This document shows, in pieces, positions 1,519-25,380 of a stretch of DNA of 37,740 bases (position 1 is the stretch's first letter; each line of letters opens with the position of its first letter). The translations under genes and the position numbers were made by a program. Below the pieces are notes generated by a model. The model had not been told where the DNA came from. It did no database searches and saw only the letters and a list, made by a program, of their open reading frames with translations. This stretch comes from Alphaproteobacteria bacterium (GTDB taxonomy: Bacteria > Pseudomonadota > Alphaproteobacteria > Rs-D84): the NCBI GenBank assembly GCA_015062445.1, contig SUUQ01000002.1:87051-124790 (forward strand), in the 5' to 3' direction.

Positions 1519-3300
1519 TTATTTCATTTTGCGTTTAATTTCATCTGCGATTACATCAACATCGAACCCCAGTTCAGAATACACATCTGTTCCCGGCCCC
1601 GACATTCCAAATCTATCAATTCCGACAACCGCATCTGCAAACTCAAACCACGGGGCAGCAGCAGCAGCTTCAACTGCAATAACACGACCTCGCAGTATTT
1701 TATTTTTATACTCTAAATCTTGCCGTCTAAAATCAGATACAGACACCACAGACACCACCTGAACCGCATCCCCCAGTTTTTTCGCAACATCGACCGCCAG
1801 TGGCACTTCGCTGCCAGTGGCCAAAATTGTTGCCCGCACATTTTTTGCCTGTCCTGGTCGTATAACATATGCCCCACGGTCCAGTTCTGCCCCCAACGGG
1901 GTATCGATTAATTTAATTTTTTGCCGTGTCAGAACAATACATGTTGGTGTATTTTTTTCCGTCAATGCCCGCCGCCACGCATACGCAACTTCAACTGCAT
2001 TACATGGTCTGAACACATTCATATTCGGAATCAGACGCAATGCTGGCAACTGTTCGATTGGCTGATGTGTTGGCCCATCTTCGCCCACAGCAACACTGTC
2101 ATGCGTCAGAACATAAACCACCGGCAACCCTGCCAACGCAGACAGCCGCATTGCCGGCCGCATATAATCACTGAACACCAGGAACGTTGACCCATACACA
2201 CGCAAACCAGACACCGCCAACCCATTCATAATTGCCGCCATTGCCGCTTCACGCACACCATAATTAACATAATTCCCTGAAAAATCATCGGCCACAATCT
2301 CGCACGAAGACGCAACCCGTGCATTCGTACTGCCCCCCAGGTCTGCACTGCCCCCGATAATTTTCTCACCTGCCGCCAGCAACCCATCAATATACATCCC
2401 CGACAACTCACGCGTTGAAATCCACTGTCCCACCGCCGGCAACACAACATTTGGCAAATTATGTTCATCTTCTACGTGCACCATCGCCAGTTGTTCCATT
2501 GCGACATTTCGCCATAAATCTTGACCAACGACCGAAATATTTTTCTGCACCAGCTGCATCATTTCTTTATCGGACAATGCAAAGCCGTGTGCCTTGTGCG
2601 ATCCTGCCAAACTAGAATCATATCCAATTTGTGTTTTGCACTGAATAAACACAGGCACATCCGATTTTTGCGCATTTTCGATTACACGATTTATGCGTGC
2701 CACATCATTACCCGGCACAGACAACACCCGCCACCCTGCAGCTGCCATACGTGCCGGCACATCAACATCTGTCTGTGCAACACCATCAATACTGACCCCA
2801 TTATCATCCCACAACAGTATCAGATTATTTAACCCCAGCCGCCCCGCCAGTGCGATTGATTCTTGTGCGACACCTTCCATCAAATCGCCATCCGAACACA
2901 GACAATACACATGCGAATCGGTTTTATTTATTTTCTCGGCCAGTGCCATACCAACAGCATTACCGACCCCCTGCCCCAGCGGTCCTGTTGTTGCATCTAC
3001 CCCCGGCATACCATACTCAGGATGCCCGGCCGGCCCACCAATTTTACGAAATTCATTTATATCGCCGATATTATACCCACACAATCGCAACACAGAATAC
3101 AACAGCGCACTGCCATGTCCGGCGGACATAACAAATCTGTCCCGTCCACGACGAACGTAATTCGCATACAGCACGGTAACAACATCTGCCGCCCCCAGCA
3201 CAATACCAACATGTCCGCTGCCAGCCATACGCACAGCATGAATTGCCCATGCCCGTACAGTCCGGGCCATTTCTTTTAAATCTTTGGAATTATACATCAT
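1519..3300 (-). CDS. tkt: Transketolase
   Basis: Transketolase moves two-carbon units between ketose and aldose phosphates in the non-oxidative pentose phosphate pathway, using thiamine diphosphate (ThDP). The 593-residue protein has GSGHVG (His about 30), AGHGSALLYS (His about 62), GPLGQG (106-111) and the ThDP-binding SDGDLMEGV (about 136-144) followed by NGVSIDG. In the pyrimidine domain it has YGVREAAMAAI with the catalytic Glu, and HDSVAVGEDGPTHQPIEQ. It is about 70 residues shorter than E. coli TktA but keeps all three domains, so it looks intact and compact. The start at 3300 (or the ATG at 3297) sits 7 nt after a perfect TATAAT with no Shine-Dalgarno, so the mRNA may be leaderless. 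It heads an operon with the YgjP-like gene. Confidence 0.93.
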   Translation of the reverse strand: MMYNSKDLKEMARTVRAWAIHAVRMAGSGHVGIVLGAADVVTVLYANYVRRGRDRFVMSAGHGSALLYSVLRLCGYNIGDINEFRKIGGPAGHPEYGMPGVDATTGPLGQGVGNAVGMALAEKINKTDSHVYCLCSDGDLMEGVAQESIALAGRLGLNNLILLWDDNGVSIDGVAQTDVDVPARMAAAGWRVLSVPGNDVARINRVIENAQKSDVPVFIQCKTQIGYDSSLAGSHKAHGFALSDKEMMQLVQKNISVVGQDLWRNVAMEQLAMVHVEDEHNLPNVVLPAVGQWISTRELSGMYIDGLLAAGEKIIGGSADLGGSTNARVASSCEIVADDFSGNYVNYGVREAAMAAIMNGLAVSGLRVYGSTFLVFSDYMRPAMRLSALAGLPVVYVLTHDSVAVGEDGPTHQPIEQLPALRLIPNMNVFRPCNAVEVAYAWRRALTEKNTPTCIVLTRQKIKLIDTPLGAELDRGAYVIRPGQAKNVRATILATGSEVPLAVDVAKKLGDAVQVVSVVSVSDFRRQDLEYKNKILRGRVIAVEAAAAAPWFEFADAVVGIDRFGMSGPGTDVYSELGFDVDVIADEIKRKMK

Positions 3301-3313
3301 GTGTGATATTATA
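3284..3313. promoter_or_regulatory. Overlapping divergent promoters for tkt (-) and rnhA (+)
   Basis: Only 36 bp separate the two start codons. On the minus strand, TATAAT (3308-3313) ends 7 nt before the tkt ATG, which predicts a leaderless transcript; its -35 is poor. On the plus strand, TTGGAA (3284-3289), 17 bp and TATTAT (3307-3312) point at rnhA, which keeps a normal AGAGGA site (3323-3328). Both -10 hexamers use the same bases. Confidence 0.55.
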
Positions 3314-3336
3314 TCATAAAAAAGAGGATATATAAA

Positions 3337-3777
3337 ATGTTAAAAATATGGACAGACGGATCATGTCTGGGCAATCCTGGACCGGGCGGCTGGGGATTTG
3401 TTGCGACCGATGGGAAAAACACCGCCGAACGCAGCGGCGGCGAAGACAACACAACCAACAACCGCATGGAATTAATGGCGGTGATACGTGCATTAACTGC
3501 GGCCCGCCGCCACAGCGAAATAGAAATTCACACCGACAGCCAGTATGTAAAAAACGGAATGCAGTCCTGGTTAAAGAACTGGAAGAAAAATAATTGGCGC
3601 ACCGCCGACAAAAAACCGGTCAAGAACCAAGACCTGTGGCAACAATTGGACGAAATTGCTTCGACCAAGCAGTTACATTGGGTCTGGGTACGTGGTCACA
3701 ATGGCGACGAGATGAACGAACGTGTTGACGAATTGGCCCGCACCGCCGCCGAAAGATTCAAGTTCACCCCCGCATAA
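3337..3777 (+). CDS. rnhA: Ribonuclease HI
   Basis: RNase HI cleaves the RNA strand of RNA-DNA hybrids (R-loops, primers). The 146-residue length is typical of the bacterial enzyme. All catalytic residues are visible: Asp7 in WTDGSCLGNPGPGGWG, Glu45 in NNRMELMAV, Asp67 in IHTDSQYVKNG, His121 in VRGHNGD and Asp131 in ERVDELAR. The basic helix (WLKNWKKNNWRTADKKPVKN) used for hybrid binding is also present. The ATG has an AGAGGA site 8-9 nt upstream. It converges on the DGR reverse transcriptase 48 bp downstream. DGR RTs lack an RNase H domain, so the neighbourhood is suggestive, but this gene looks like an ordinary housekeeping copy. Confidence 0.96.
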   Translation: MLKIWTDGSCLGNPGPGGWGFVATDGKNTAERSGGEDNTTNNRMELMAVIRALTAARRHSEIEIHTDSQYVKNGMQSWLKNWKKNNWRTADKKPVKNQDLWQQLDEIASTKQLHWVWVRGHNGDEMNERVDELARTAAERFKFTPA

Positions 3778-3825
3778 CCCAGCCCCACAATTCCACACTT
3801 AAACACTCTTGCCTGCCAGCAAATT

Positions 3826-4872
3826 TTAACACAGTGGCACCACCCCCCGTCCCCCACAGAATGCGAATTTTGGGTTCAGATTAACACTTATCAAAAATCC
3901 CCACTGATCCATCACCCATTTGCGAAAATTGAAACTGCACGCCCATTTCAGCCACCCTGCGGCGGCGGCGATTTGACTGCATGCCCGGTGCGAATGGTCG
4001 TTATATTTCCAAATATTGCCCAGTCTTTGTTTAATTCTGTACTTTCCCCGTTTTCTCATCAGTATAAATTTTGGAAAGTGCCTGTATCCAATAAAATTGA
4101 CCCCATACGATACCGGGGCCACATTACATTTTGAAAACACCAAATCCAGGTTTTCTTGCACAAAATTCTCCAGTTGTTTTGCCAAGACATGCAATTGTTT
4201 TTTATCATTTCCGAACAGACAGAAATCATCGCAATACCTGATATAGTCCCGCCATCTCAGTCGATATTTCACGAACGCATCCAGTTCATTCAGATACACA
4301 TTCCCCAGCCATTGACTGGTTAAATTTCCGATTGGCAGATTTATTCCATTTCCACCTGACCGGACGATATTTTCCATCAAGCATATGATACGATTATCAT
4401 TAATTTTTCGTTTAATAATTTTCATCATAATATCATGATTAATACTGGGAAAGAATTTTCTGATATCACACTGCAGCACATACTTATTTCTTCGTATAAA
4501 GTGCATTACTCTTCTTGACCCTGCGTGCAGCCCCCGCCCTGGGATACATGCATAAGAATCCCGAATAAACATTTTATGCCAAATTGGCCCCAGCACATTT
4601 ATCAAGGCATGTTGCACGACATGGTCAGGATACAGTGGCAGCATATAAATCTGTCTTTCTTTTGGTTCGAATATTGTAAAGACAACATATTTTGACGTAC
4701 GAAAATTTCCATTTATCAAATCCTGCTGTAATTTCTGCAACAATTCTGTTTTATTTGCCAAGAACTGTTGCACCATTGCCTTGGACTTTTTACTTTTGAC
4801 TGCTTTTTTTGCGGCCAGTTCTAAATTTTCCATAGAAATAAATTTATCCCACAGATTTTTATACGTTTTCAC
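3826..4872 (-). CDS. Diversity-generating retroelement (DGR) reverse transcriptase
   Basis: A 348-residue reverse transcriptase of the DGR clade. It opens with the clade's MENLELAAKKA block (14-24). It then has IPGRGLHAGSRR (110-121), the RT3 catalytic Asp in LQCDIRKFFPSINHD (about 133-147), IGNLTSQ (181-187, the DGR hallmark replacing the QGxxxSP of group II introns and retrons), RYCDDFCLFG (YxDD, 212-221) and NFIGYRHFP. No maturase or RNase H domain is visible. DGR RTs copy the TR RNA with adenine-specific errors and deliver the cDNA to the VR. The adjacent TR/VR pair with 17 of 17 changes at adenines confirms the assignment. The start is a GTG with AAAGGAATAAGTC upstream. A stem-loop element (4908-4984) lies between it and the accessory gene. 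Confidence 0.95.
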   Translation of the reverse strand: MKTYKNLWDKFISMENLELAAKKAVKSKKSKAMVQQFLANKTELLQKLQQDLINGNFRTSKYVVFTIFEPKERQIYMLPLYPDHVVQHALINVLGPIWHKMFIRDSYACIPGRGLHAGSRRVMHFIRRNKYVLQCDIRKFFPSINHDIMMKIIKRKINDNRIICLMENIVRSGGNGINLPIGNLTSQWLGNVYLNELDAFVKYRLRWRDYIRYCDDFCLFGNDKKQLHVLAKQLENFVQENLDLVFSKCNVAPVSYGVNFIGYRHFPKFILMRKRGKYRIKQRLGNIWKYNDHSHRACSQIAAAAGWLKWACSFNFRKWVMDQWGFLISVNLNPKFAFCGGRGVVPLC

Positions 4873-4907
4873 GACTTATTCCTTTGGTTGCGGTATTTTT
4901 TTTTACA

Positions 4908-4984
4908 ATTAACTGGATTGCCACGCGTACTGCAACACTGAAAAGTGGGAAATGCATTACACCACACGTGGCAGTTCAGTTAAT
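4908..4984. repeat. 77-bp long-stem hairpin element, copy A
   Basis: Two 18-nt arms (4908-4925 and 4967-4984) are inverted repeats matching at 16 of 18 positions; the two mismatches are G-T wobbles when read on the plus strand. The centre contains AAAGTGGGAAAT. A second element with the same outer stem (AACTGG..TGCCACG / CGTGGCA..CAGTT) and the same 12-nt centre is at 23349-23418. It sits between the DGR accessory gene and the RT gene. Confidence 0.7.
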
Positions 4985-4998
4985 CTATGACATACGGA

Positions 4999-5325
4999 TT
5001 ATGAAAAAGAATAATACTTATCGATTCTGACGACTGTTCCTTTGAACGGTATATTTTCCCGTGCGGCCTGTATTTGGTCGCTCAGGACAGAACTGCCTGT
5101 AAATGCGACAAAGACATCATCATCCATTACAAATTGTATTTGCAGACAATCTGTACCTTCTTTACGTTTTGACTTGGTTATTCTGAAATCTGTGACAACG
5201 ATTTCCCGGTTCAGGATTTCATCCAATCGTTTTTTCTTGCCAGGCATTGGCAGTTTATCTTTGGCAAAGTTTGCGAATTTATCGCATTGGCTGACATTTA
5301 TTGCTTTGATTTCATCCAGTGTCAT
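4999..5325 (-). CDS. Small DGR-cassette protein, possible nucleic-acid-binding accessory (not Avd)
   Basis: A 108-residue protein starting MTLDEIKAINVSQCDKFANF, with AAGGAT six nt upstream of the ATG; an in-frame TTG 57 nt upstream lacks such a site. The N-terminal half is basic (KDKLPMPGKKKRLDEIL). The C-terminal half alternates hydrophobic strands: REIVVTDFRITKSKRKEG, CLQIQFVMDDDVFVAFTG, and a late IPFKGTVVRIDKYYSFS. This resembles small OB-fold or ssDNA-binding-type phage proteins, but I cannot name a family. It does not look like the helical-bundle Avd of classical DGRs. Its position between the TR and the RT, on the same strand, suggests it helps reverse transcription or template handling. 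That role is inferred from location only. Confidence 0.7.
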   Translation of the reverse strand: MTLDEIKAINVSQCDKFANFAKDKLPMPGKKKRLDEILNREIVVTDFRITKSKRKEGTDCLQIQFVMDDDVFVAFTGSSVLSDQIQAARENIPFKGTVVRIDKYYSFS

Positions 5326-5522
5326 ACTTTTATCCTTGTATTTTTTGTTTACATTCAATCGGATATCCCGGACGTTCACCAAGATTCATGATTACATCAT
5401 CACGTTTCCTGATTACTAGCCCAGATATCCCCTGCGCTTTGTTTTCGACTTTTGCATGCATATTCTTCGCACACTCAGTCAGGCCGTACCATCCCGCCTT
5501 TGATAAAGAAGGCCTAATAAAA

Positions 5523-5561
5523 CAGATATTTTTTATATCTGAAAAGTGCCATACGCACTTT
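5523..5561 (-). ncRNA. Two hairpins in the TR-RT spacer (putative 3' part of the DGR template RNA)
   Basis: Reading minus-ward from the TR, a 7-bp hairpin (AAAGTGC, GTATG loop, GCACTTT, about 5544-5562) is followed by CAGATAT-AAAAA-ATATCTG (5523-5541) and then TTTTATT. In the Bordetella phage DGR the spacer downstream of TR is structured and needed for cDNA priming. These hairpins occupy the equivalent place, but the AT-rich one could also be a weak terminator. The remainder of 5326-5616 has no supported gene. Confidence 0.45.
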
Positions 5562-5616
5562 GTCCCGCAGGTTGGCGAAACTTGTTCCTTTTCACACCAA
5601 GTACCCTTCCCAAGGA

Positions 5617-5764
5617 GCCCGCAGCCGCAAACACGGACGCCCGAAACCGGCGACCATTGTCATTGTCGTTGTGGACGTTGTTGCCACAGTTGTTCGCGCA
5701 ATTAGACGCACAATTGGACGCATTCCCGTTGTCGTTGTTGAACACCCACGGGGACGCGGCAATA
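5617..5764 (-). repeat. DGR template repeat (TR)
   Basis: 148 bp that align without gaps to VR1 (5976-6123, offset 359). On the coding (minus) strand the TR is packed with AAC/AAT codons: read in the VR frame, its core spells N-rich segments such as FNNDNGNASNCASNCANNC. All 17 differences from VR1 fall on TR adenines (8 A to T, 5 A to G, 4 A to C), and no other base differs. AAY codons are the known DGR design that allows many amino acids without stops. The frame is open (5533-5808) only because the TR mirrors a coding VR; it is not called as a gene. The common 3' part (about 5617-5655) contains no change and would include the homing initiation region. Confidence 0.95.
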
Positions 5765-5800
5765 AGAACCACGACACCACTGCTTACGACGATACAGCCC

Positions 5801-5861
5801 ATTCCCATTTTTACGTGGGAATCTGCCTGTGATTTATTCTGTATTGTTATAAATCATTATA
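5801..5861 (-). promoter_or_regulatory. Candidate promoter and hairpin upstream of the TR
   Basis: On the minus strand, GATTATAATG gives a perfect TATAAT at 5856-5861, but no good -35 is seen. A 7-bp hairpin (ATTCCCA/TGGGAAT, 5801-5822) lies between it and the TR. It could start a separate template RNA; co-transcription with the target gene is equally possible. Confidence 0.3.
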
Positions 5862-5881
5862 ATCTCCATTTGTTGTTTCCA

Positions 5882-5905
5882 TTGGGGGCGGGGCGCCGCC
5901 CCCAA
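5882..5905. other. GC-rich hairpin between VR1 and TR
   Basis: TTGGGGGCG and CGCCCCCAA form a 9-bp stem with a 6-nt loop. It is strikingly GC-rich in an AT-rich context. No T-run follows on either strand, so it is not a standard terminator. Confidence 0.6.
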
Positions 5906-5917
5906 ATCCCCCACCCT

Positions 5918-5966
5918 GATTTCCGGCCCATGTGGTTATATCCACATGGGCAATTCCGATTTCCGG
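5918..5966. promoter_or_regulatory. Putative DGR target-recognition hairpin/cruciform downstream of VR1
   Basis: CCCATGTGG (5927-5935) and CCACATGGG (5942-5950) form a perfect 9-bp inverted repeat with a 6-nt loop, 26 bp downstream of the 3' end of VR1 in the coding sense. It is flanked by a 9-bp direct repeat GATTTCCGG (5918-5926 and 5958-5966). Classical DGRs carry a hairpin or cruciform just after VR that promotes target recognition, and this one is in the expected place. The TR has no such hairpin at the corresponding position. Confidence 0.7.
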
Positions 5967-5969
5967 TTA

Positions 5970-6719
5970 TCAATCGCCCGCAGCCGCAAACACGGACGCC
6001 CGAAACCGGCGACCATCGACATAGTCGGAGTGGACGAGGTTGCCACAGTAGCTCGCGCAATCAGACGCACAATAGGACGCATACCCGCGGTCGTAGCGGA
6101 ACACCCACGGGGACGCGGCAATATTGGGTTCTGTCATCTTACAATAACAATATTGTCCCCCCGCCGTGGCATTTTCAATCGCAGATTGGTCAGTCGCAAT
6201 CAAACCGGAATTCCACCCATATGCCGTATTTTCCGGCATTACCGTTGTACATTTTGATACGCCATTAACAATCCCGTATGGAAACACCGCATGCCACGTG
6301 CCAGATGCACCACTTACATACGTATAAGTGGTACCACCAACCCCCAGATTCGCCGCCAAATCCGCAGGCGTTGCAATCACCCCAGATGGGTCAGATAGAT
6401 AGTGGGGCTGAATAACAACGTCAGATGTAAAACTGTATGTAAATGATGATGTGGTATACGCATATTCAACACCATCGATGTACACTGACCAACCACTGAT
6501 TCTATACCCCGTGGGCGGTGTACAGGCCGATGTTAATGCCGCAGGGGTAAATGACGTGTTATAATTCGCAACTCCATCCGCCGGCAATGTACCGCTTTCT
6601 GTACCCGCACCGCACGAATACACAACATTATATGTCGTTTTGACACATGTTTCCGCATTTGCCATGCCAATAATAGACACAACCGCAATGCACAGTGTCG
6701 TTATTTTTATCCCTTTCAT
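5970..6719 (-). CDS. Secreted DGR target protein with C-terminal variable region (VR1)
   Basis: A 249-residue protein with a clear signal peptide (MKGIKITTLCIAVVSIIGMANA, cleavage before ETC). One Cys-containing InlB-B/Listeria-Bacteroides-like repeat follows (about 27-108: NVVYSCGAGTESG to VIQPHYL), then a middle domain, a GGQYCYCKMTEPN motif, and a C-terminal VR from about residue 199 to near the end. VR residues are Tyr/Ser/Asp-rich at the positions where the TR has Asn. Conserved framing is AASPWV at the start and RRFRASVFAAAG at the end. The protein is presumably surface-exposed or secreted, with VR as a variable binding face. A Shine-Dalgarno AAGGAAG precedes the ATG. It lies 40 bp after the repeat-protein gene and is probably co-transcribed. 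A paralogue is at 22548-23300. The ligand is unknown. Confidence 0.9.
   Translation of the reverse strand: MKGIKITTLCIAVVSIIGMANAETCVKTTYNVVYSCGAGTESGTLPADGVANYNTSFTPAALTSACTPPTGYRISGWSVYIDGVEYAYTTSSFTYSFTSDVVIQPHYLSDPSGVIATPADLAANLGVGGTTYTYVSGASGTWHAVFPYGIVNGVSKCTTVMPENTAYGWNSGLIATDQSAIENATAGGQYCYCKMTEPNIAASPWVFRYDRGYASYCASDCASYCGNLVHSDYVDGRRFRASVFAAAGD
5976..6123 (-). repeat. DGR variable repeat VR1
   Basis: The 148-bp counterpart of the TR, covering the last ~49 codons of the target gene. It differs from the TR at 17 sites, each an adenine in the TR sense strand; both flanks match the TR exactly to the boundaries. This directional, base-specific pattern shows past mutagenic retrohoming. 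Confidence 0.95.
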
Positions 6720-6759: not shown

Positions 6760-8628
6760 CTATTCCCACTGGGCAACCAGGCGTATATTCCCAGGTTCCG
6801 TCCATGTATATGTGCCACCAGATGCAACCGTGATGCCCGTGTCATTGCCAAATGCATCTGTGATTTTATACCCAACAAACGTTGTACCCGCCGCCGCTGT
6901 GCACACCGTGGTGGACGGGGTAATGGTGCCACCAAACGTGGCATTAATATAACTGCTGACTGTGGTGCCATTATCACAAATATATGCACCGCCGTATACG
7001 TTTGCCGTCCATTGCGCAACCATCGTTTTATCCGTAGTGTACGTATAACTGTACGAACCACCTTTGCTGATACTGGTTGAATCTATCTTCCATCCGCTGA
7101 AATAATACCCAGGTTTATAACAGGTACCCGCACGATATGGGCCGCTGTAATACATTTTATACCCTACGGCATGCGATTCGGGCGGTGTGCCGGTCGCACC
7201 ATCACCACACGAATATGACAGTGTGTACTGGGCGGGCGGTTCGGGCGATGTCTGCCGGCCATCGTCTGACCATATTGCACGCAGCCGAACATTCGTGCCC
7301 CATGCCCATGTGGTCGATGAACCGGGGGTCAACGTTTGTCCCGTTTCATTACCATACATATCCAACACCTGATACCCTTGCAATGTTTGACCATATGGAT
7401 TAACGCATGACAAACTGGATGACGACTTGGGGGTAAAATTCGAATTATATGTACCGGTGGCATAGTCCGAACTGACGTACGTACTGTCCGAACAATAATT
7501 GCATAAATATGGTGCACCGTATGCGTTTGCACTCCATTGGGCCACCATCGTCTTATCGGTGGTGTATGTATAACTGTACGAACCGCCTTTGCTGATACTG
7601 GTTGAATCTATCTTCCATCCGCTGAAATAATACCCAGGTTTATAACAGGTACCCGCACGATATGGGCCTGTATAGTACAACTTATACCGAACAGTATGCG
7701 ATTCGGGTGGTGTGCCGGTCGCACCATCACCACACGAATATGACAATGTGTACTGGGCGGGCGGTTCGGGCGATGTCTGCCGGCCATCGTCTGACCATAT
7801 TGCACGCAGCCGAACATTCCCCGGCCATGCCCATTTGGTTGATTTGCCCGGGGCTAATTGTTCCCCCGTGTCATCGCCAAACATATCGGAAACAACATAA
7901 TATTCCAATGTCTGACCATATGGATTAACGCATGACAAACTGGATGTCGCCTTGGGGGTAAAATTCGAATTATATGTACCGGTGGCATAGTCCGAACTGA
8001 CGTACGTACTGTCCGAACAATAATTGCATAAATACGCACCACCGTATGCATTTGCCGTCCATGTCGCAACCATCGTTTTATCCGATGTGTACGTATAACT
8101 GTATGCCGTACCGGTGGTCAATGATGTCGAATCAATTTTCCATCCGCCAAATGTATACCCTGGATTTATACAACCCGCCGCACCATCAGGGCGACTGAAC
8201 AATTCCCCCCACCCTATTTCACGCGATTCGGGCGGTGTGCCGGTCGCACCATCACCACAACTGTACGACAATGTGTATGTCGTGGGACACAGTTGCCCCG
8301 AATTCGAATTTGCATGGTATATTGCATCATTATAACTGACATTCAATGTGCCATCTGATTGGCCACTTATCAAATCTGCATAACAAACTGTGTCGCCGTT
8401 TTTAATGTGAATGGCTGGAAATGTTCCCTGGGTCGCAAACAGGTCAAATCGATATCCGTTGGATGTATGTAAACCGGTCACGCCACCGCCGCACAGTTCC
8501 ATACATTCACCGTTGGCATTGCGAACCAAATTCGCCGCCGGCCCCAAATATGCCGTGGTACCATCTGGACATGCCGCATGCACAGACATCGGAACCAAAA
8601 TAAATAACAACAAAAATTTATGACTCAT
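6760..8628 (-). CDS. Secreted Cys-rich Listeria-Bacteroides (InlB-B-like) repeat protein, copy 1
   Basis: 622 residues from the ATG at 8628, chosen over a TTG at 8643 because it begins the signal peptide MSHKFLLLFILVPMSVHA and has GGGGGA upstream. The N-terminal domain (CPDGTTAYLGP to NSNSGQLCPTT) is nearly identical to the 25251 paralogue. Then come about six 70-90-residue repeats of the form YTLSYSCGDGATGTPPES, GYYFSGWKIDSTS, DKTMVAQW, alternating with Cys repeats (YLCNYCSDSTYV to VRLRAIW). At DNA level the long unit recurs with a 525-bp period (for example 7225 and 7750). No anchor or transmembrane segment is visible, so it is likely secreted or held by partners. It precedes the DGR target in the same unit. 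The ligand or adhesive function is unknown; InlB-B repeats occur in many surface proteins. Confidence 0.85.
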   Translation of the reverse strand: MSHKFLLLFILVPMSVHAACPDGTTAYLGPAANLVRNANGECMELCGGGVTGLHTSNGYRFDLFATQGTFPAIHIKNGDTVCYADLISGQSDGTLNVSYNDAIYHANSNSGQLCPTTYTLSYSCGDGATGTPPESREIGWGELFSRPDGAAGCINPGYTFGGWKIDSTSLTTGTAYSYTYTSDKTMVATWTANAYGGAYLCNYCSDSTYVSSDYATGTYNSNFTPKATSSLSCVNPYGQTLEYYVVSDMFGDDTGEQLAPGKSTKWAWPGNVRLRAIWSDDGRQTSPEPPAQYTLSYSCGDGATGTPPESHTVRYKLYYTGPYRAGTCYKPGYYFSGWKIDSTSISKGGSYSYTYTTDKTMVAQWSANAYGAPYLCNYCSDSTYVSSDYATGTYNSNFTPKSSSSLSCVNPYGQTLQGYQVLDMYGNETGQTLTPGSSTTWAWGTNVRLRAIWSDDGRQTSPEPPAQYTLSYSCGDGATGTPPESHAVGYKMYYSGPYRAGTCYKPGYYFSGWKIDSTSISKGGSYSYTYTTDKTMVAQWTANVYGGAYICDNGTTVSSYINATFGGTITPSTTVCTAAAGTTFVGYKITDAFGNDTGITVASGGTYTWTEPGNIRLVAQWE

Positions 8629-8644
8629 TCCACATTCCCCCAAT

Positions 8645-16584: not shown

Positions 16585-17850
16585 TTAGTTCAACCCCAGG
16601 TTTTCTGGGGTCAGTTTCCCCATTGCAGCCAGCACCGCAAAATATGCAGATATTCGTGCGTGCTTTGCCCGTGTATGTGCCACCTGGGAATTCAACAATT
16701 CTTGTTCCGCATTCAGCACATCCAGCACCGTCCGCCGCCCCTGCATTTGTTCATCACGAATCCCATCCAGTGCCATTTTATTTGCATCTACACTGGCCCG
16801 TGTTGCATTTATTGCCGTTTCCTGGGCAACATAGATATTCCATGCAGATCTCAGATTTTCAACAATTCCACGACGTGCCGTTAAAATCTGTTCTTGGACA
16901 GATGCGACATTTGCACGCACTTTATCCGCATTCGCCATGGCATTTCCTTTGTCAAACAGCGGCACCCGCAGATACACCCCAACCCGACTGTCAGTTATAT
17001 CATCAACAAACGGCACATTATCCAATCGCTGTACAGTCCCCCGAATATCAACCGATGGCAGCATTGTCTGGTATGCAATTTTTATATTTTGTTTTACAGC
17101 CGCCTCTTGTTCCGCCAGCGCAACCAACACAGGGTGCTGTGCCAGTGCCAATTCCTGGGCATCAAATACAGATTCCGGGAACATCCCATCTGTCTTATTT
17201 GTGTCGATATCAACATACATCCACCTGTCATCACCGCTGATATTTTTCACAGATTCTTTGGCATTATCGTATTGTGCGCTGGCATCACTGACCTGATAGC
17301 GCGCCATTTCCAGTCTTGCTGATGCCTGGGCAACATCTGTTTTGGTCATACGTCCAACATCCTGACCATCCTTTACAAACTGATAGTATTCCGCCAACAC
17401 CCGTTCATTGTTCTGATTCAGTTTTAACACTGCATCTGCGTTCAGCACATTAATATATGCATTTATCGCATCCAAAAAAACTTCTTGTTGTGTTGCATAC
17501 ATATTCGCCTGCTGTGCAGCCAACAATCCTTGTGCGGCTTTGATTTTTGCAAACATTGCCCCTCCCTGGAAAACATTTTGCTGCACCTCCAGACCATATT
17601 GCATTGGCACATACTCAAATGACCTGTCTGCAAGTTCTGTTTTTGCCACCCCAACATTACCAGACAACCCCAAATACGGTTTCAGCACGGTTTTTGCCAC
17701 ATCGACTTCGGCCATTGCTGCTGCAACATCAGCCCTTTTTTGCCCCAGAACAGGATTATTATTATACACACTGGCCAAAACAGAATACACATCTGCATGC
17801 GCCATCCCAATACAGCACAAAGAAAAAAATATTGCACACAACGTCTTCAT
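16585..17850 (-). CDS. tolC: TolC-family outer-membrane efflux protein
   Basis: 421 residues from the ATG at 17850, giving the signal peptide MKTLCAIFFSLCCIGMAHA; the longer frame upstream overlaps the permease gene. Two OEP repeats rich in long helices are visible: VYSVLASVYNNNPVLGQKRA to AEYYQFVKDGQDVGRMTKTD, and ELALAQHPVLVALAEQEA to RRTVLDVLNAEQELLNSQVA. TDVAQASARLEMARY and VLDVLNAEQELLNSQ are typical TolC features. It would form the trimeric outer-membrane channel for the ABC exporter encoded just upstream (25-bp gap). Having a dedicated TolC as the last gene of a Ybh-type operon supports a complete envelope-spanning pump. Confidence 0.92.
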   Translation of the reverse strand: MKTLCAIFFSLCCIGMAHADVYSVLASVYNNNPVLGQKRADVAAAMAEVDVAKTVLKPYLGLSGNVGVAKTELADRSFEYVPMQYGLEVQQNVFQGGAMFAKIKAAQGLLAAQQANMYATQQEVFLDAINAYINVLNADAVLKLNQNNERVLAEYYQFVKDGQDVGRMTKTDVAQASARLEMARYQVSDASAQYDNAKESVKNISGDDRWMYVDIDTNKTDGMFPESVFDAQELALAQHPVLVALAEQEAAVKQNIKIAYQTMLPSVDIRGTVQRLDNVPFVDDITDSRVGVYLRVPLFDKGNAMANADKVRANVASVQEQILTARRGIVENLRSAWNIYVAQETAINATRASVDANKMALDGIRDEQMQGRRTVLDVLNAEQELLNSQVAHTRAKHARISAYFAVLAAMGKLTPENLGLN

Positions 17851-17875
17851 GTTCTCTGCCCCCCCATTGTATTTA

Positions 17876-18976
17876 TTATCGCAGTGTTGTCTTAAACCGA
17901 TGCAGTGCCCAAATCCATATTGCAACCCCTGATGCCATCATTGCCGCTGCATGTCGCCAGAAATACATCCAGTCCGGCCCCTTTAACATAATACTTCGAA
18001 CCAAATATGCATAGTGACTTAATGGATTTATATAACTTATCCAGCGCAAAACAACAGGCATATTTTCCGTTGACACAATTGCCCCAGACAACATCAGCGA
18101 TAAAAATGCCACTATAATCAGTCCCAACATTGCCTGCTGCTGTGTGTGCGTATACGTAGCCAACCACACCCCAACACCACATGCCGGCACACAAAACACC
18201 AAAAAAGCCAACAAGAACATAAACCAAGAGCCCGCAAACGGCACATGAAACACAATCATCCCAACAATAACGATTAACAGCATAACCAAAAACGCCACCG
18301 CCACATATGGCACGACCTTGCCCAGAATAATATCATACTTTGAAATAGGTGCCGCAATCAGGTTCTCCATTGTTCCTGTTTCTTTTTCTTTGGCAATTGA
18401 TACCGCAATCAAAATCAACAATGCTAAAAACACCAGTATTGCCACCATTGACGGCACCATAAAGAACTTTGTATCCAATTGTGGGTTAAACAAGATTCGC
18501 ACATTCATATCAATCGGTGTTCCTAATTCTGTCCCTGTGGCATCTACGATTGTTTTTGTAATTATGCCACGCAGGTATGCCTCTATACTGTGTGCCTTCA
18601 AAATATTCATTGAATCAATCAGTATTTGTATTTCTGCATTTCCCTGTGCGACATCATGCGTAAATCCACCATCTGGTGCAATTATTGCTACATCTGCCAT
18701 ACCACCTTGCACCGCTGCCACAGGGTCGATTTTATCTGCATTAACTGGAATAAACAGCCCTGTTCCGATGGCATGATTGTATATTTGATTCATCATCACA
18801 TCATTTGGCCTTGCGTCCATAATAATTTTCAAATTATCCGCCTGGAACGTTATCGCCCCGGCCAAGACCACCATCTGCACCACAGGCATAATCAGTATTG
18901 CCATCATCAGAATCGGATCACGCAGCAATGCGATAATTTCCTTTTTGAAAAATCCACCCAGTACTTTGATATTCAT
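17876..18976 (-). CDS. ABC-2 type exporter permease (YbhR-like)
   Basis: 366 residues from the ATG at 18976, overlapping the previous stop by ATGA (18973-18976). Architecture of the ABC2_membrane_3 family: a TM helix near the N-terminus (ILMMAILIMPVVQMVVLAGAI), a large periplasmic domain, and five TM helices in the C-terminal half. Signature segments are FNPQLDTKFFMVPSMVAILV, AKEKETGTMENLIAAPISKY and SGAIVSTENMPVVLRWISYI with NPLSHY. It should pair with the preceding permease and the two ATPases. Related E. coli YbhR and YhhJ export drugs; the substrate here cannot be read from sequence. Confidence 0.9.
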   Translation of the reverse strand: MNIKVLGGFFKKEIIALLRDPILMMAILIMPVVQMVVLAGAITFQADNLKIIMDARPNDVMMNQIYNHAIGTGLFIPVNADKIDPVAAVQGGMADVAIIAPDGGFTHDVAQGNAEIQILIDSMNILKAHSIEAYLRGIITKTIVDATGTELGTPIDMNVRILFNPQLDTKFFMVPSMVAILVFLALLILIAVSIAKEKETGTMENLIAAPISKYDIILGKVVPYVAVAFLVMLLIVIVGMIVFHVPFAGSWFMFLLAFLVFCVPACGVGVWLATYTHTQQQAMLGLIIVAFLSLMLSGAIVSTENMPVVLRWISYINPLSHYAYLVRSIMLKGPDWMYFWRHAAAMMASGVAIWIWALHRFKTTLR

Positions 18977-20097
18977 TCCAAAGACCTCTTGAATTTTGCC
19001 ACACAAATAATCAGTATTATTAATGCCTGCAGCCCTAAAATTGCATACAACCACCATATATCTGCAAACAAACTGCCCTTTAAGAATTGATCCCGGGTGA
19101 TATCCATATAGAACCGTGCTGGAAACATTGCGGATACAATTCTGTAACCACGTGTCATATATTCAATTGGAAAAACAAATCCAGACAAAATTACCGTTGG
19201 CAGCAATCCAACAATTGCCGCATATTGAATTGCCACTTCTTGCTTTTTTGTTGACACGGAAATAAACAACCCAATTGCCAGGTATGCCAATATAAACAGC
19301 CATGTCCCGAACACCAATTGCCAATAACTGCCAACAAATGGCACCCCAAACACAAACCGTGCAATTGCGAACACCAACACAAACCCAACAAAACTAATAA
19401 TTGCATACGGCACCACCTTGCCCAAGATAATATCCAGTCGTGTTGCCGGTGTTGACAGCAGCATCTCCATCGATCCCCGTTCCCATTCACGACAAATCGT
19501 CAATGTTGTCAGCATAATTGCCACCAGCGCAATTATCACAGCTGCCAATCCCGGTACTGCAAACCACCTTGAATTCAGTTCTGGATTAAACATATATCGA
19601 ATTTTATATCGCAACACACCAGCATTATGATTTATGGGCACATCTTGAATTTTATAATATGAATTTATATTAATTGTATTCAGATAATTTGACACCGCCG
19701 ACATTGTTGAACTTTCCGTTCCATCAACCAGCACCTGAACACTTCCTGCATTATTCCCCAGCATATCTTTTTCGAATCCCCCCGGCACAGCCAGTCCAAC
19801 CCGGGCCCGCCCTGCAACAATTTCATCAAACAATTTATCAGGATTATCGATTTGATATGGTTGGAAATAGTTTGAACTGGCAAACGTTTCGACCAGTTTT
19901 CTTGATGCCATTGTTTTATCATTATCGACAAATGCCATATCAATTGATTTAATATTAAACTCTATCGAACTGCCCAGTATTAATACAATCAGCAACGGCA
20001 ACAATAATGCCATCATCAGCGTAAATGGATCACGCCAAATATGCTTAAATTCTTTAAACAAAATCGCCTTGGTTCTGTCCCAAGAAAATATTTTCAT
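18973..20097 (-). CDS. ABC-2 type exporter permease (YbhS-like)
   Basis: 374 residues from the ATG at 20097 (MKIFSWDRTKAILFKEFKHI), which overlaps the ATPase stop by ATGA; the longer open frame intrudes into that gene. It has the N-terminal cytoplasmic amphipathic segment and TM1 (TLMMALLLPLLIVLILGSSI), a periplasmic domain (DNDKTMASRKLVETFASSNY, VQVLVDGTESSTMS), and a C-terminal TM block with REWERGSMEMLLSTPATRLD and LSGFVFPIEYMTRGYRIVSA. It is most like YbhS. Heterodimeric pairing with the downstream permease is inferred from gene order. Confidence 0.9.
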   Translation of the reverse strand: MKIFSWDRTKAILFKEFKHIWRDPFTLMMALLLPLLIVLILGSSIEFNIKSIDMAFVDNDKTMASRKLVETFASSNYFQPYQIDNPDKLFDEIVAGRARVGLAVPGGFEKDMLGNNAGSVQVLVDGTESSTMSAVSNYLNTININSYYKIQDVPINHNAGVLRYKIRYMFNPELNSRWFAVPGLAAVIIALVAIMLTTLTICREWERGSMEMLLSTPATRLDIILGKVVPYAIISFVGFVLVFAIARFVFGVPFVGSYWQLVFGTWLFILAYLAIGLFISVSTKKQEVAIQYAAIVGLLPTVILSGFVFPIEYMTRGYRIVSAMFPARFYMDITRDQFLKGSLFADIWWLYAILGLQALIILIICVAKFKRSLE

Positions 20098-21005
20098 CTG
20101 TTTTTTCCTTCGACCAGTCTGATAAACACATCTTCCAGCGACGGTGGAATTTGCTGAATTTCCCAATCGCGCTTTAATTTTCTCAGCCACGATGCCACGT
20201 CGACCCCATCTTTGAACTTCACATGGAACCTGGCCCCATACGGCTGCCACAAATCGATTACATCTGGTGTTGGTCGCATTGGTTTATCCTTTTTTGGTTT
20301 GACACTGAACAGTGTATTACCAAATGTTTTTTGTTTTAATTCATCTGGACTGGCGATTGCGATAATTTCTCCTGCACGCATCAGTGCAATTTGTTCACAG
20401 TTTTCTGCTTCATCCATATAGTGCGTTGTAACAAACACTGTCATTCCTTCGTTTGCCAGTTCACGAATTAATTTCCAGAATCTAAATCTGGCATGCGGTG
20501 CAACACCTGCGGTTGGTTCATCCAAGAACACGATCTTTGGTTGATGCAGCAATGCGACACACAGTGCGATTTGTTGTTTAATTCCTCCTGGGATATTTTT
20601 CACCACCACCCGAATATCACCGTCAAACCCAACAAATTCCAACAGCTGTTTTCGCCGTTCCAAATACAATTTGTTATCCATTTGGTGCAATGCCGCCGCA
20701 AAGTCAAAATTTTCTTTGACAGACAAATCGTTATACAGTGTGAATTTCTGGGACATATATCCGACTTTTTCTTTGATTTTGTTTTCATTTCCTGGGGTAA
20801 ACGATATGCCATCAATTATCACCCGACCACTGGTTGCCGGCAGCAATCCACACAGCACCCGTATTGTTGTTGTCTTACCCGCCCCATTTGCACCCAAGAA
20901 TCCAAATATCTGCCCTGGTGCCACTGCAAACGACACGTTTTTCACCGCCCAGAAATCACCGAATTTCACCGACATATTTTTAACATCGACAATTTTATCA
21001 ATCAT
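20094..21005 (-). CDS. ABC exporter ATPase, equivalent to the C-terminal half of YbhF
   Basis: A 303-residue cytosolic nucleotide-binding protein. It has Walker A GANGAGKTTTIR (about 38-49), Q-loop YMSQKFTLYNDLSVKEN, Walker B IVFLDEPTAG and an intact H-loop (TTHYMDEAENC). The signature is degenerate (IPGGIKQQ instead of LSGGxxQ), and the D-loop reads AGVAP rather than AGVDP. E. coli YbhF is a single fused tandem ATPase whose second half also has an unorthodox signature, so this gene corresponds to that half. The C-terminal 80 residues form an extra domain. ATGA overlap with the permease gene and with the previous ATPase implies tight coupling. Confidence 0.9.
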   Translation of the reverse strand: MIDKIVDVKNMSVKFGDFWAVKNVSFAVAPGQIFGFLGANGAGKTTTIRVLCGLLPATSGRVIIDGISFTPGNENKIKEKVGYMSQKFTLYNDLSVKENFDFAAALHQMDNKLYLERRKQLLEFVGFDGDIRVVVKNIPGGIKQQIALCVALLHQPKIVFLDEPTAGVAPHARFRFWKLIRELANEGMTVFVTTHYMDEAENCEQIALMRAGEIIAIASPDELKQKTFGNTLFSVKPKKDKPMRPTPDVIDLWQPYGARFHVKFKDGVDVASWLRKLKRDWEIQQIPPSLEDVFIRLVEGKNR

Positions 21006-21733
21006 TTGCGTTTTTCCCTGCGTTTCAAGAACAGTTCATCAAAACTATTACTGTTATATTTTTTCAGCAACAAATCTGGTTCACCTGCTGCAAACACTCG
21101 TCCATTTTCCATCAATGCGACTGAATTACACCTTTCTGCTTCGTCCATATATGCAGTTGAAATCAGAACCAATATTCCGTTATTTTTCGCATTATCCAAC
21201 AGTCCCCAGAATTCTCGTCTGCTGATTGGGTCAACACCATTTGTTGGTTCATCCAGCATCATAATTCGTGGCGACCGCAACAAAGCGCAAATCAGCCCCA
21301 ATTTTTTATACATCCCACCCGACAATTTTCCTGCAGGTCTGTCCAAGAAAGTTTCCAATCGTGCCAAATGCACCAATTCGTCTTTTTTATATTGAAAATC
21401 TGCATCATTTATACCATACAGTTTTCTAAAGAAATCCAGATGTTCTTCCACCGACAAGTCTGCATATAAACTGTGACTTTGCGGCATGTATGCAATCTGT
21501 TCTTGGATTTTATCAAAATATATTTTTCGTCCATTTTCACGATATTGCACAGTTCCAGAATTTGCCCGCATTAAATCCATCATAATCCGAAACAGTGTTG
21601 TTTTTCCCGCCCCCGCAGGCCCAATAATTCCATACAGTTTTCCACTGGCAAATCGCATCGACACGTTATCCAGTGCGACAACATCTTTAAACTGTTTAAA
21701 AACTTTATCTACCCAGATTTCAATTTCATTCAT
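21002..21733 (-). CDS. ABC exporter ATPase, equivalent to the N-terminal half of YbhF
   Basis: 243 residues with Walker A GPAGAGKTTLFR, Q-loop YMPQSHSLYADLSVEEHLDF, a canonical signature KLSGGMYKKLGL, Walker B IMMLDEPTNGVDPISRREFW and C-terminal STAYMDEAERC. The H-loop histidine is replaced (STAYM), as in the N-terminal half of YbhF. Combined with the degenerate signature of the next ATPase, the two would form one good and one weakened ATP site. The gene starts inside the last 8 nt of the membrane-fusion gene. Confidence 0.9.
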   Translation of the reverse strand: MNEIEIWVDKVFKQFKDVVALDNVSMRFASGKLYGIIGPAGAGKTTLFRIMMDLMRANSGTVQYRENGRKIYFDKIQEQIAYMPQSHSLYADLSVEEHLDFFRKLYGINDADFQYKKDELVHLARLETFLDRPAGKLSGGMYKKLGLICALLRSPRIMMLDEPTNGVDPISRREFWGLLDNAKNNGILVLISTAYMDEAERCNSVALMENGRVFAAGEPDLLLKKYNSNSFDELFLKRREKRK

Positions 21734-22547: not shown

Positions 22548-23300
22548 CTATAATGCCCCGGCAAACACGGACGCCCGAAACAAGCGACCAGCGTCACTGT
22601 CGTGGCGGACGTTGCCGGCACAGTAGTACGCGCAACCAGTCTCACAAATGGACGCATCATCCCTGGTGGCGCCGTAGACCACCCACGGGGACGCGGCAAG
22701 ATTGGGTTCTGTCATCTTGCAATAACAATAGTAACCACCCGCCGTGGCATTTTCAATCGCAGATTGGTCAGTCGCAATCAAACCCGTAGTACCTCCACCC
22801 GAAGTATTTGCTGGCTTAACCGTTGTGCATTTTGATACGCCAGATACCGCACCATACCAAAAATGAACCGTCCAGGTGCCAGACGCAGCATTGGTGTATG
22901 CACCTATGCTACGAGCACCATCATACAAATTCGCAATCATGGTCGCAGGTTCCGCAATCGGTACCCAATGCGGACCAATTTCAATATCTGTTGTATAATA
23001 ATAGGTAAACGAACCGCCACTGGTACTGCTGTAATATGCAACCGTTTCATCATCAACAATTATCGCCTGGCCGCCATAGACATAGCCAGATGGGGCCGTA
23101 CACATGCTTTCTTTAATTGCCGTGGGTTTGAAACTGGTGCCGTATGTCGCAGTGGTGGACGATGGCAATGTGCCGGACAACGTCCCACCATTACACGTGT
23201 ACGTCACATTAAATACTGTTTTTATGCATGTTTCTGCGTTCGCCACACCAAAAACGGATGCAATCGCAATGCACAATGTTGTTCTTTTTATTCCATTCAT
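22548..23300 (-). CDS. Secreted DGR-type target protein, second copy (VR2)
   Basis: A 250-residue paralogue of the 5970-6719 target. The signal peptide is MNGIKRTTLCIAIASVFGVANA, followed by a Cys InlB-B-like repeat (about 27-112), a middle region, YYCYCKMTEPN, and a C-terminal variable region ending RLFRASVFAGAL. The start has AGGAACAGGAA directly upstream. It follows the second repeat-protein gene exactly as the first pair is arranged. There is no TR or RT next to it. The VR resembles the local TR but carries an inserted codon and at least seven substitutions at non-adenine positions, so it was probably written from a different template or has not been rewritten for a long time. Confidence 0.88.
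   Translation of the reverse strand: MNGIKRTTLCIAIASVFGVANAETCIKTVFNVTYTCNGGTLSGTLPSSTTATYGTSFKPTAIKESMCTAPSGYVYGGQAIIVDDETVAYYSSTSGGSFTYYYTTDIEIGPHWVPIAEPATMIANLYDGARSIGAYTNAASGTWTVHFWYGAVSGVSKCTTVKPANTSGGGTTGLIATDQSAIENATAGGYYCYCKMTEPNLAASPWVVYGATRDDASICETGCAYYCAGNVRHDSDAGRLFRASVFAGAL
22561..22699 (-). repeat. Second variable repeat (VR2), diverged from local TR
   Basis: It aligns to TR 5628-5761 with one 3-nt insertion. By my codon-by-codon reading, about 18 changes sit on TR adenines and about 7 do not (for example TTC to GTC, GCG to GAG, CGG to TTG). Flanks are conserved: GCAAACACGGACGCCCGAAA on the plus strand at one end and CCACCCACGGGGACGCGGCA at the other. Adenine enrichment still marks it as a DGR VR. 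No strong hairpin follows; only a 5-bp AT-rich one (GAATT-CTT-AATTC, about 22521-22533). Confidence 0.75.
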
Positions 23301-23427: not shown

Positions 23428-25251
23428 TTATTCCCACAGGGCAACCAAACGTATGTTCCCAGGTACCGTCCATGTCCATGATGCCCCCGGCGAAATAACA
23501 ATACCCGTGTCATTACCCAATGCATCCAACACGCGATACCCCGCAAATGTCGCACCATCCGCCGCGGTGCATACCGTGCCGCTGGGGCTGATACTGTTGC
23601 CAAAGGTGGCATTAACATAACTGCTGTTTGTTGCACCGTTATTACATAAATACGCACCACCATATGCGTTTGCCGTCCATTGTGCAACCATCGTTTTATC
23701 GGTGGTGTAATTATATGTGTAATACACACCCTTAGATAACGATGTTGAATCTATCTTCCAGCCACTAACGGAATAGCCCGGCTTACGACATGTACCAACA
23801 TCGTATGGTGGTGTGTACATTTCACCATTGGCAATCTGTTTTGATTCCGGTGCTATGCCAGTCGCACCATCACCACAACTGTACGACAATGTGTATTTTG
23901 TACTGACCTCTGGTTCTGACCACATCGCACGCAACTGAATATTCCCCGGCCACGACCATGTGGTTGATTGCCCCGGGGTTAACTGAACACCTGCTTCATC
24001 ACCATATACATCCAACACCTGGTATCCTAACAATGTCTGATTAAACGGATTTTCACACGATAAACTGGATTTTGACGTAAAACTGCCACCATAATTTGCA
24101 GTTACATAATCTGAATTTGTAAATGGACTGCCTGGACAATAATTACACAAATACGGTGCACCGTATGCGTTTGCCGTCCATTGTGCAACCATCGTTTTAT
24201 CGGTGGTATAATTATATGAATAATATTGCCCCTTGGTTAATGATGCGGAATCTATCTTCCACCCACTGATGGAATACCCCGGCTTACGGCACGTTCCTGC
24301 ATTATGGGGTGGCGTATATGTTTCACCATTGGCAATCTGTTTTGATTCTGGTGGTGTGCCGGTCGCACCATCGCCACAACTGTATGACAATGTGTATTTT
24401 GTCACAGTACTGACCCCTGGTTCTGACCACATCGCACGCAACTGAACATTCCCCGGCCACGACCATGTGGTTGTTTGTCCTGGGGTTAACTGAACACCTG
24501 TTTCATCACCATATACATCCAACACCTGGTATCCTAACAATGTCTGATTAAACGGATTTTCACACGATAAACTGGATTTTGACGTAAAACTGCCACCATA
24601 ATTTACATTTACATAATCTGAATTTGTAAATGGACTGCCTGGACAATAATTACATAAATACGGTGCACCGTATGCGTTTGCACGCCATTGGGCCACCATC
24701 GTTTTATCGGTGGTATAATTATATGAATAATATTGTCCTTTGGTTAATGACGTGGAATCTATCTTCCACCCACTGATGGAATACCCCGGCTTACGGCATG
24801 TACCAACATCGTATGGTGGGGTGTACATATCCCCCCACCCCATTTCATGCGATTCTGGCGGTGTGCCGGTCGCACCATCGCCACAACTGTATGACAATGT
24901 GTATGTCGTGGGACACAGTTGCCCCGAATTCGAATTTGCATGGTATATTGCATCATTATAACTGACATTCAATGTGCCGTCTGATTGACCACTTATCAAA
25001 TCTGCATAGCAAACTGTGTCGCCGTTTTTAATGTGAATGGCTGGAAATGTTCCCTGGGTCGCAAACAGGTCAAATCGATATCCGTTGGATGTATGTAAAC
25101 CGGTCACGCCACCGCCGCACAACTCAACACAGTCGCCATTCGCATTGCGATAACGGGTTGATTCCGGCCCCAAATATGCCGTGGTACCATCTGGGCATAC
25201 CGCGTGTACAGACATCGGTATAATACACAATAATAAAAATTTACATTTCAT
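23428..25251 (-). CDS. Secreted Cys-rich Listeria-Bacteroides (InlB-B-like) repeat protein, copy 2
   Basis: 607 residues from the ATG at 25251 (MKCKFLLLCIIPMSVHA signal peptide), which has GGGGG about 9 nt upstream, matching copy 1; longer in-frame starts at 25269 and 25257 are less well placed. The N-terminal domain is almost identical to copy 1, even at DNA level (about 24900-25120 versus 8280-8500). Repeats alternate YTLSYSCGDGATG, GYSISGWKIDS, YNYTTDKTMVAQW with YLCNYCPGSPFTNSDYV, LGYQVLDVYGDE, LRAMW. The long unit has a 507-bp period (24202 and 24709). Probably secreted or surface-bound; no anchor is seen. First gene of a unit with the VR2 target. Confidence 0.85.
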   Translation of the reverse strand: MKCKFLLLCIIPMSVHAVCPDGTTAYLGPESTRYRNANGDCVELCGGGVTGLHTSNGYRFDLFATQGTFPAIHIKNGDTVCYADLISGQSDGTLNVSYNDAIYHANSNSGQLCPTTYTLSYSCGDGATGTPPESHEMGWGDMYTPPYDVGTCRKPGYSISGWKIDSTSLTKGQYYSYNYTTDKTMVAQWRANAYGAPYLCNYCPGSPFTNSDYVNVNYGGSFTSKSSLSCENPFNQTLLGYQVLDVYGDETGVQLTPGQTTTWSWPGNVQLRAMWSEPGVSTVTKYTLSYSCGDGATGTPPESKQIANGETYTPPHNAGTCRKPGYSISGWKIDSASLTKGQYYSYNYTTDKTMVAQWTANAYGAPYLCNYCPGSPFTNSDYVTANYGGSFTSKSSLSCENPFNQTLLGYQVLDVYGDEAGVQLTPGQSTTWSWPGNIQLRAMWSEPEVSTKYTLSYSCGDGATGIAPESKQIANGEMYTPPYDVGTCRKPGYSVSGWKIDSTSLSKGVYYTYNYTTDKTMVAQWTANAYGGAYLCNNGATNSSYVNATFGNSISPSGTVCTAADGATFAGYRVLDALGNDTGIVISPGASWTWTVPGNIRLVALWE

Positions 25252-25267
25252 CCCCATACCCCCAATC

Positions 25268-25380
25268 AAAAAACCGCCCGTTTTTAACGGCGGTCGGGGA
25301 ATTCAAAAATCATAAAAAGCAATGACCCTGTTGGTCTTTCACATTTAATGCGTATTATATACACCAACAGTCCCCCGACC
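25268..25380 (-). promoter_or_regulatory. Structured leader with terminator-like hairpin, copy 2
   Basis: In the minus-strand RNA, GGTCGGGG (25373-25380) pairs with CCCCGACC (25292-25299). Directly inside, CTGTTGGT (25363-25370) pairs with ACCAACAG (25328-25335). The outer 3' strand overlaps by 3 nt a terminator-like hairpin (25273-25294) followed by TTTTTT, just before GATTGGGGG and the start codon. The architecture matches 8645-8736 although the sequences differ. Confidence 0.55.

Follow-up and report, generated by a model that had tools for sequence, protein, structure and literature searches.

A predicted OB-fold protein occupies the place of Avd in a chromosomal diversity-generating retroelement of a gut-type alphaproteobacterium

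Introduction

How does a diversity-generating retroelement (DGR) diversify its target gene when Avd, the helical-bundle accessory protein that is essential in the sole well-studied DGR, is not found in its cassette? The question is raised by a locus on contig SUUQ01000002.1, from the chromosome of a small-genome (1.05 Mb), gut-type alphaproteobacterium, of which a stretch of 37,740 nt (the window) was analysed. The element is a DGR on a cellular chromosome and as such of an already known kind, and a preliminary description of the same DNA had called it complete. That term needs qualifying, since reverse transcriptase (RT), template repeat (TR), variable repeat (VR) and target are in place, but Avd was not found and a different small protein, here called acc, sits in its stead. 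We propose, with a probability of about 0.85, that this is a chromosomal DGR in which acc replaces Avd and which homes into the repeat VR1, two other VR-bearing genes being former targets.

Results

All features of the DGR read on the minus strand, and positions are those of the whole window. TR (5617..5764) and VR1 (5976..6123) pair without gaps over 148 nt at a spacing of 359, and their identity stops sharply at either end. All 17 differences, as first reported in the preliminary description, fall on TR adenines of the coding strand (eight to T, five to G and four to C); with 31 adenines among the 148 positions of TR, the hypergeometric probability of adenine-only differences is 3e-14. Every one of the 31 adenines lies at codon position 1 or 2 and none at position 3, and the 18 variable codons of TR allow about 2e18 possible proteins, a stop codon being impossible. 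Among the altered VR1 residues that the preliminary description derives from Asn codons, Val comes instead from Asp (GAC).

The REVERSE TRANSCRIPTASE gene (3826..4872, GTG start) encodes a 348-residue product that matches RVT_1 of Pfam (PF00078) and phrog_1423 of PHROGs (E 9e-106), and that carries the IGNLTSQ motif, described earlier as DGR-specific, alongside a YCDD active site. Its best solved-structure match is chain 8ub7_A, titled 'Reverse transcriptase' (E 1.5e-53), which we take to be the BPP-1 DGR RT (bRT) complex; the 185 bits of this match, against 77 bits for the runner-up chain, serve here in place of the DGR profile search that had been suggested as a check, and place the protein with the RTs of DGRs. 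Compared directly, the protein is 34% identical to BPP-1 brt over 325 residues. The 1.05-Mb genome holds one DGR-type RT and one TR. In a tree composed only of DGR RTs, a strongly supported group unites the window RT with RTs from Alphaproteobacteria and viruses that are accompanied by acc, and BPP-1 falls outside on a long branch.

Evidence for homing comes from a sister locus (L057), on a contig of the sheep-rectum metagenome-assembled genome (MAG) RGIG6210. At the DNA level its TR is identical to that of the window, and spacer, acc and RT are 99.3%, 98.1% and 99.4% identical, respectively. Between the VRs of the two loci there are 20 differences, of which 19 fall on TR adenines (P 6e-15), a comparison of two related genomes that takes the place of read-level variation and that bears out the expected confinement of changes to these positions. 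At the same time, non-adenine sites of the VR differ at only 1 of 117 positions, against 69 of 599 in the rest of the target gene (P 5e-5). Sites that are frozen next to sites that vary point to overwriting from a constant TR, that is, to template-driven homogenisation, since ordinary divergence does not explain both. This indicates, from sequence comparison, that mutagenic retrohoming has occurred since the two lineages separated. Adenine-only TR/VR pairs are likewise seen in most element-bearing congeners (e.g. 16/16, 15/15, 14/14 and 13/13 differences). Broken DGRs also occur among the congeners: the RT is split over two frames in one (L043 of G023), acc stands without RT in another (L041 of G027) and an RT fragment is left in a third (L052 of G020). 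One congener (L054 of G010) carries a different DGR, with an RT at 7257-8333 that is 33% identical and a repeat pair (6918-7030/8584-8696) in which 13 of 14 differences lie at A; neither acc nor Avd was found in this DGR.

The acc gene (4999..5325) sits between TR and RT. Relatives begin at the same Met, the ATG at 5325, which yields 108 residues (pI 8.6); an alternative TTG start at 5382 would yield 127. No convincing family match of acc was obtained in Pfam, PHROGs, PADLOC, NCBIfam or PDB sequences, including the Avd models PF22296 and NF033474, which recognise BPP-1 Avd in the same libraries. PF22296 has no match in this genome and none above cut-off among 59 genomes. An AlphaFold2 model based on 44 sequences (pLDDT 94) places strands at residues 41-51, 59-67 and 70-76, a helix at 79-87 and further strands at 94-101 and 104-107, so that acc is confidently modelled as an oligonucleotide/oligosaccharide-binding (OB) fold, a five-stranded barrel with the helix between strands 3 and 4. 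In VIA-align, residues 35-108 of the model align with several OB domains, among them those of RuvBL2 (Z 7.2), bacterial SSB (6.3) and PriB (5.6), but there is no sequence similarity to these proteins, and the conserved motifs FTGSxVL, PF and KxYY are specific to the acc family rather than shared with them. Foldseek of the model against PDB returned nothing significant, and the best matches in BFVD are RT-containing viral proteins (E 1e-6). Avd and acc are both small proteins of DGR cassettes, but acc lacks a match to Avd and is modelled as a beta-barrel.

The link between acc and RT extends well beyond this genome. Of the 59 genomes, 12 have both genes, 2+2 have just one of the two and 43 have neither (Fisher 7e-9); G017, among those with RT only, is a contig end. 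Scans for the spread used acc profiles, not RT, as the query, and recovered 27 genome contigs, nearly all titled as Alphaproteobacteria, proteobacterium or Rickettsiales MAGs, several from ruminant gut, together with at least 135 viral contigs; no acc homologue was found on plasmids. Among 119 acc loci checked, which are loci with near-duplicates among them and not independent events, a DGR-type RT lies beside acc in 114 and an adenine-biased TR/VR pair is present in 94. The gap between acc and RT has a median of 41 bp in the second batch of loci, and either gene order occurs. Homologues also directly follow the RT in the ANMV-1 virus and in Methanosarcinales virus vir525. On the RT tree the acc label needs about four changes, hence acc is clustered, yet not confined to one sampled clade.

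Three RTs of crAss-like phages (cr7_1, cr55_1 and LMMB), which form one clade within the acc-bearing part of the tree, bear C-terminal extensions of about 90-110 residues. Aligned to the acc profile, these extensions are in register nearly end to end, with a profile-profile score of 20.1, where 100 column shuffles reached no more than 14.9. Searching the extensions with a hidden Markov model of acc gave no significant hit, and no homologues came from a scan with the LMMB extension. Taken together, the comparisons are suggestive, not proof, of a fusion of acc to the RT C-terminus in some crAss-like phages.

The interval between TR and acc (200-290 nt) is strongly conserved, and its predicted fold comprises a closing stem and several hairpins, the structured core lying at 5413..5580. 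Over 21 sequences, 91.8% of cells are paired (at most 56% when slid), with 26 two-sided changes, and the covariation score exceeds all 500 shuffles. In most relatives a further hairpin keeps its position with a wholly different sequence. The covariance model built from this RNA (R1) scores 145.5 bits in the window, recovers held-out relatives at 68-141 bits and, among relatives, matches only acc-bearing genomes; it also matches weakly, at 26.5 bits, just upstream of acc in a member of another genus (L050). No Rfam family was found for the spacer RNA. The folded spacer of BPP-1 recruits RT-Avd and supplies the priming adenine (PMC12875486), and by analogy the spacer RNA here may play a similar role. 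The two RNAs are, however, not detectably homologous: R1 fails to find the BPP-1 spacer even unfiltered, and the string AAAGGCGGGGC, common to these spacers and that of BPP-1, was rejected as a shared element and taken as chance, since in addition viral acc-type spacers show no excess of it relative to shuffles. We note separately that 19 of 58 unique viral spacers (e.g. L129, L136 and L140) contain a 3' motif, AAAAYACANAACGGAGG...AGTA, against 0.13 expected. The motif is similar to AATACANAACGCAGG...GGGCTAGTA at the 3' end of the spacer RNA in bacteria; it is a lead only, since the pattern was written post hoc and the exact regular expression misses the window.

Target gene 1 (5970..6719, 249 residues) opens with a signal-peptide-like segment, continues with an InlB-like repeat and a Cys-rich C-terminal VR domain, and ends 6 nt after the VR, consistent with the secreted, VR-terminated target noted previously. 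The protein is probably exposed and may bind variable ligands, judging from its sequence features. At the 3' end of VR1, the sequence GCGGCTGCGGGC resembles an initiation of mutagenic homing (IMH) site, and the IMH boundary presumably lies there. An inverted repeat, GCCCATGTGG-N6-CCACATGGGC (5926..5951, no strand assigned), starts 24 nt after VR1, has a 6-nt loop and is a putative target-site hairpin or cruciform. Several relatives carry an inverted repeat at 24-25 nt with different but pairing stems, e.g. GCCATACGCC/GGCGTATGGC and GCCTATGC/GCATAGGC, i.e. with compensating changes; in other relatives a strict search found no inverted repeat, or only one farther off. The BPP-1 repeat after the VR is required for efficient homing by its structure, not its stem sequence (PMC3240598).

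Copies of the VR are also present in two paralogous genes, target 2 (22548..23300, minus strand; VR2 at about 22561-22699) and a gene on contig C1 (L002) that carries VR3. The coordinates of the preliminary description are right for TR and VR1; it leaves out VR2, the spacer RNA and the cruciform, and does not name acc as a part of its own. Compared to TR, 18 of 27 substitutions in VR2 (P 1e-8) and 15 of 24 in VR3 (P 1e-6) lie at TR adenines, with nine non-adenine changes in each and three inserted nucleotides in VR2. Both have altered 3' IMH-like ends, no inverted repeat was found downstream of either, and the corresponding copies in the sister genome are likewise diverged, with indels. The best reading of these sequences is that VR2 and VR3 are former targets which have lost their homing signals and would no longer receive cDNA. 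Derivation of VR2 and VR3 from another TR in relatives was rejected, as the fit of the window's own TR is surpassed by none of them.

A gene for a secreted InlB-like-repeat protein precedes every VR target (6760..8643, directly upstream of target 1, and 23428..25269 for target 2, both on the minus strand; L002:2366-3247 for the third), i.e. a two-gene cassette present three times in the genome. Two more secreted proteins on contig C2 of the same assembly, G000 (L208:2637-3071 and 3013-3816), share the Cys-rich VR-type C-terminal domain with little TR identity, which suggests that the domain family extends beyond the targets of the DGR. Target 2 immediately adjoins genes for an HlyD-like protein, ABC proteins and an outer membrane efflux protein (16585-22478), possibly its exporter. 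The neighbours of the DGR itself are rnhA, transketolase, FtsJ, uvrA and dus, and no phage genes were recognised among them, in line with the cellular, not obviously phage, setting described before. The RNase H gene (3337-3777), probably the housekeeping rnhA, adjoins the RT gene in convergent orientation.

Discussion

Based on these analyses, we propose that the element operates as follows. An RNA spanning TR and the folded spacer, the exact transcript limits being presumed, would serve as template for the DGR RT, with errors introduced opposite adenines, and the resulting mutated complementary DNA (cDNA) would then overwrite VR1 at the 3' end of the secreted protein gene, with homing guided by the shared 3' end (IMH) and the cruciform 24 nt downstream. 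The usual place of Avd would be taken by the non-homologous, 108-residue OB-fold acc, which most likely binds the spacer RNA and/or nascent single-stranded cDNA within the RT complex. Thus, acc may either do the job of Avd, recruiting and positioning the RT, or shield the cDNA for homing.

The BPP-1 DGR (brt, avd, TR and the VR of mtd) shares with this element the RT family, the adenine-specific transfer from TR to VR, the IMH-like 3' end, an inverted repeat after the VR and a structured spacer next to TR. It differs in having Avd instead of an OB-fold acc and in not residing on a cellular chromosome, and its inverted repeat lies close behind the VR with a GRNA tetraloop, in contrast to the 24-nt distance and 6-nt loop found here. 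ANMV-1 (KP703175) and vir525 have related RTs with an acc homologue (37-38% identity) annotated only as 'hypothetical protein', but are viral, and their target is a tail-fibre-like protein. A figure legend of the 2015 ANMV-1 paper labels one cassette open reading frame (ORF) as Avd.

Several points weigh against the proposed account. It is built on sequence comparison and predicted models throughout, and the VR diversity between two MAGs reports past homing, not a present rate. The Z-scores of the OB matches (6-7) are modest and the fold is a common one, and for this reason the predicted binding of nucleic acid by acc is an inference only. The RT-acc fusion depends on predicted structures and a weak profile score, and the VR domain of the target is modelled at pLDDT 57 with no useful fold match, leaving a ligand-binding (CLec) fold unproven.

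Other explanations differ in weight. That the locus is not a DGR at all, but either arose by chance duplication and biased substitution or carries an RT of another class, such as that of a group II intron or defence system, is hardly credible: RVT_1, group II and defence RT models do match the RT, but more weakly, bRT is the best match by more than 100 bits, the adenine-only changes have a P of 3e-14, and adenine-only pairs recur in relatives, by which this explanation is refuted in practice. A passenger role for acc, which would hitchhike with the RT of an ordinary DGR without taking part in homing, would fit with the fact that the tie of acc to homing comes from linkage, not experiment, and with the different DGR of G010, where neither acc nor Avd was found. 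We nevertheless regard it as unlikely, as the linkage spans Alphaproteobacteria, archaeal viruses and many viral contigs at a median gap of 41 bp in both gene orders, and the fusion-like RT extensions speak against it as well.

A similarly low probability is assigned to a decayed element with old VR1 changes, an idea to which the broken copies in several relatives (the split RT and the acc without RT described above) lend some weight, and the evidence on VR1 comes from genome comparison, not reads. Against decay, the ORFs are intact, the window and L057 differ in the adenine changes of their VRs although their TR, spacer, acc and RT are 98-100% identical, and the non-adenine sites of the VR are kept identical to TR. 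Unlikely too, though slightly less so, is the idea that the one TR still diversifies VR2 and VR3 in trans, as remote targets that are live. Their adenine enrichment and near-perfect identity to TR at both VR ends would agree with this, and trans diversification has been reported in another DGR-rich genome (PMC10907252); the nine non-adenine changes in each, the altered 3' IMH-like ends, the inserted nucleotides of VR2 and the failure to find a downstream inverted repeat argue for their retirement instead. We therefore retain the account of a chromosomal DGR with acc in place of Avd and VR1 as its homing target.

More than 30,000 DGRs have been described (PMC8144416), and the accessory proteins listed in a review are Avd, HRDC, MSL and one earlier-reported protein without Pfam or CDD attribution (PMC10053308). 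HRDC and MSL are likewise alternative DGR-linked proteins, but match PF00570 and PF01624, respectively, whereas acc matches no Pfam domain. The unattributed protein could be acc, in which case the family may already be listed as hypothetical. Its source is presumably Wu 2018. Four findings appear to be new: the assignment of acc to the OB fold, its close linkage to the RT over a very wide range of sequences, its possible fusion to the RT, and the covariation in the spacer RNA. Beyond the single locus, we lean slightly towards the view that a large branch of DGRs, on gut alphaproteobacterial chromosomes, in archaeal viruses and in many uncultivated viruses, is free of Avd and has an OB-fold RT partner, fused to the RT in some crAss-like phages.

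In conclusion, acc may serve as an annotation marker for DGRs that current libraries leave unnamed, and an acc-type DGR may offer a compact alternative for targeted in vivo mutagenesis of laboratory strains. If the proposed account is true, a structurally unrelated RT partner would reveal which step the accessory protein serves in these elements, be it RNA recruitment, cDNA priming or cDNA protection.

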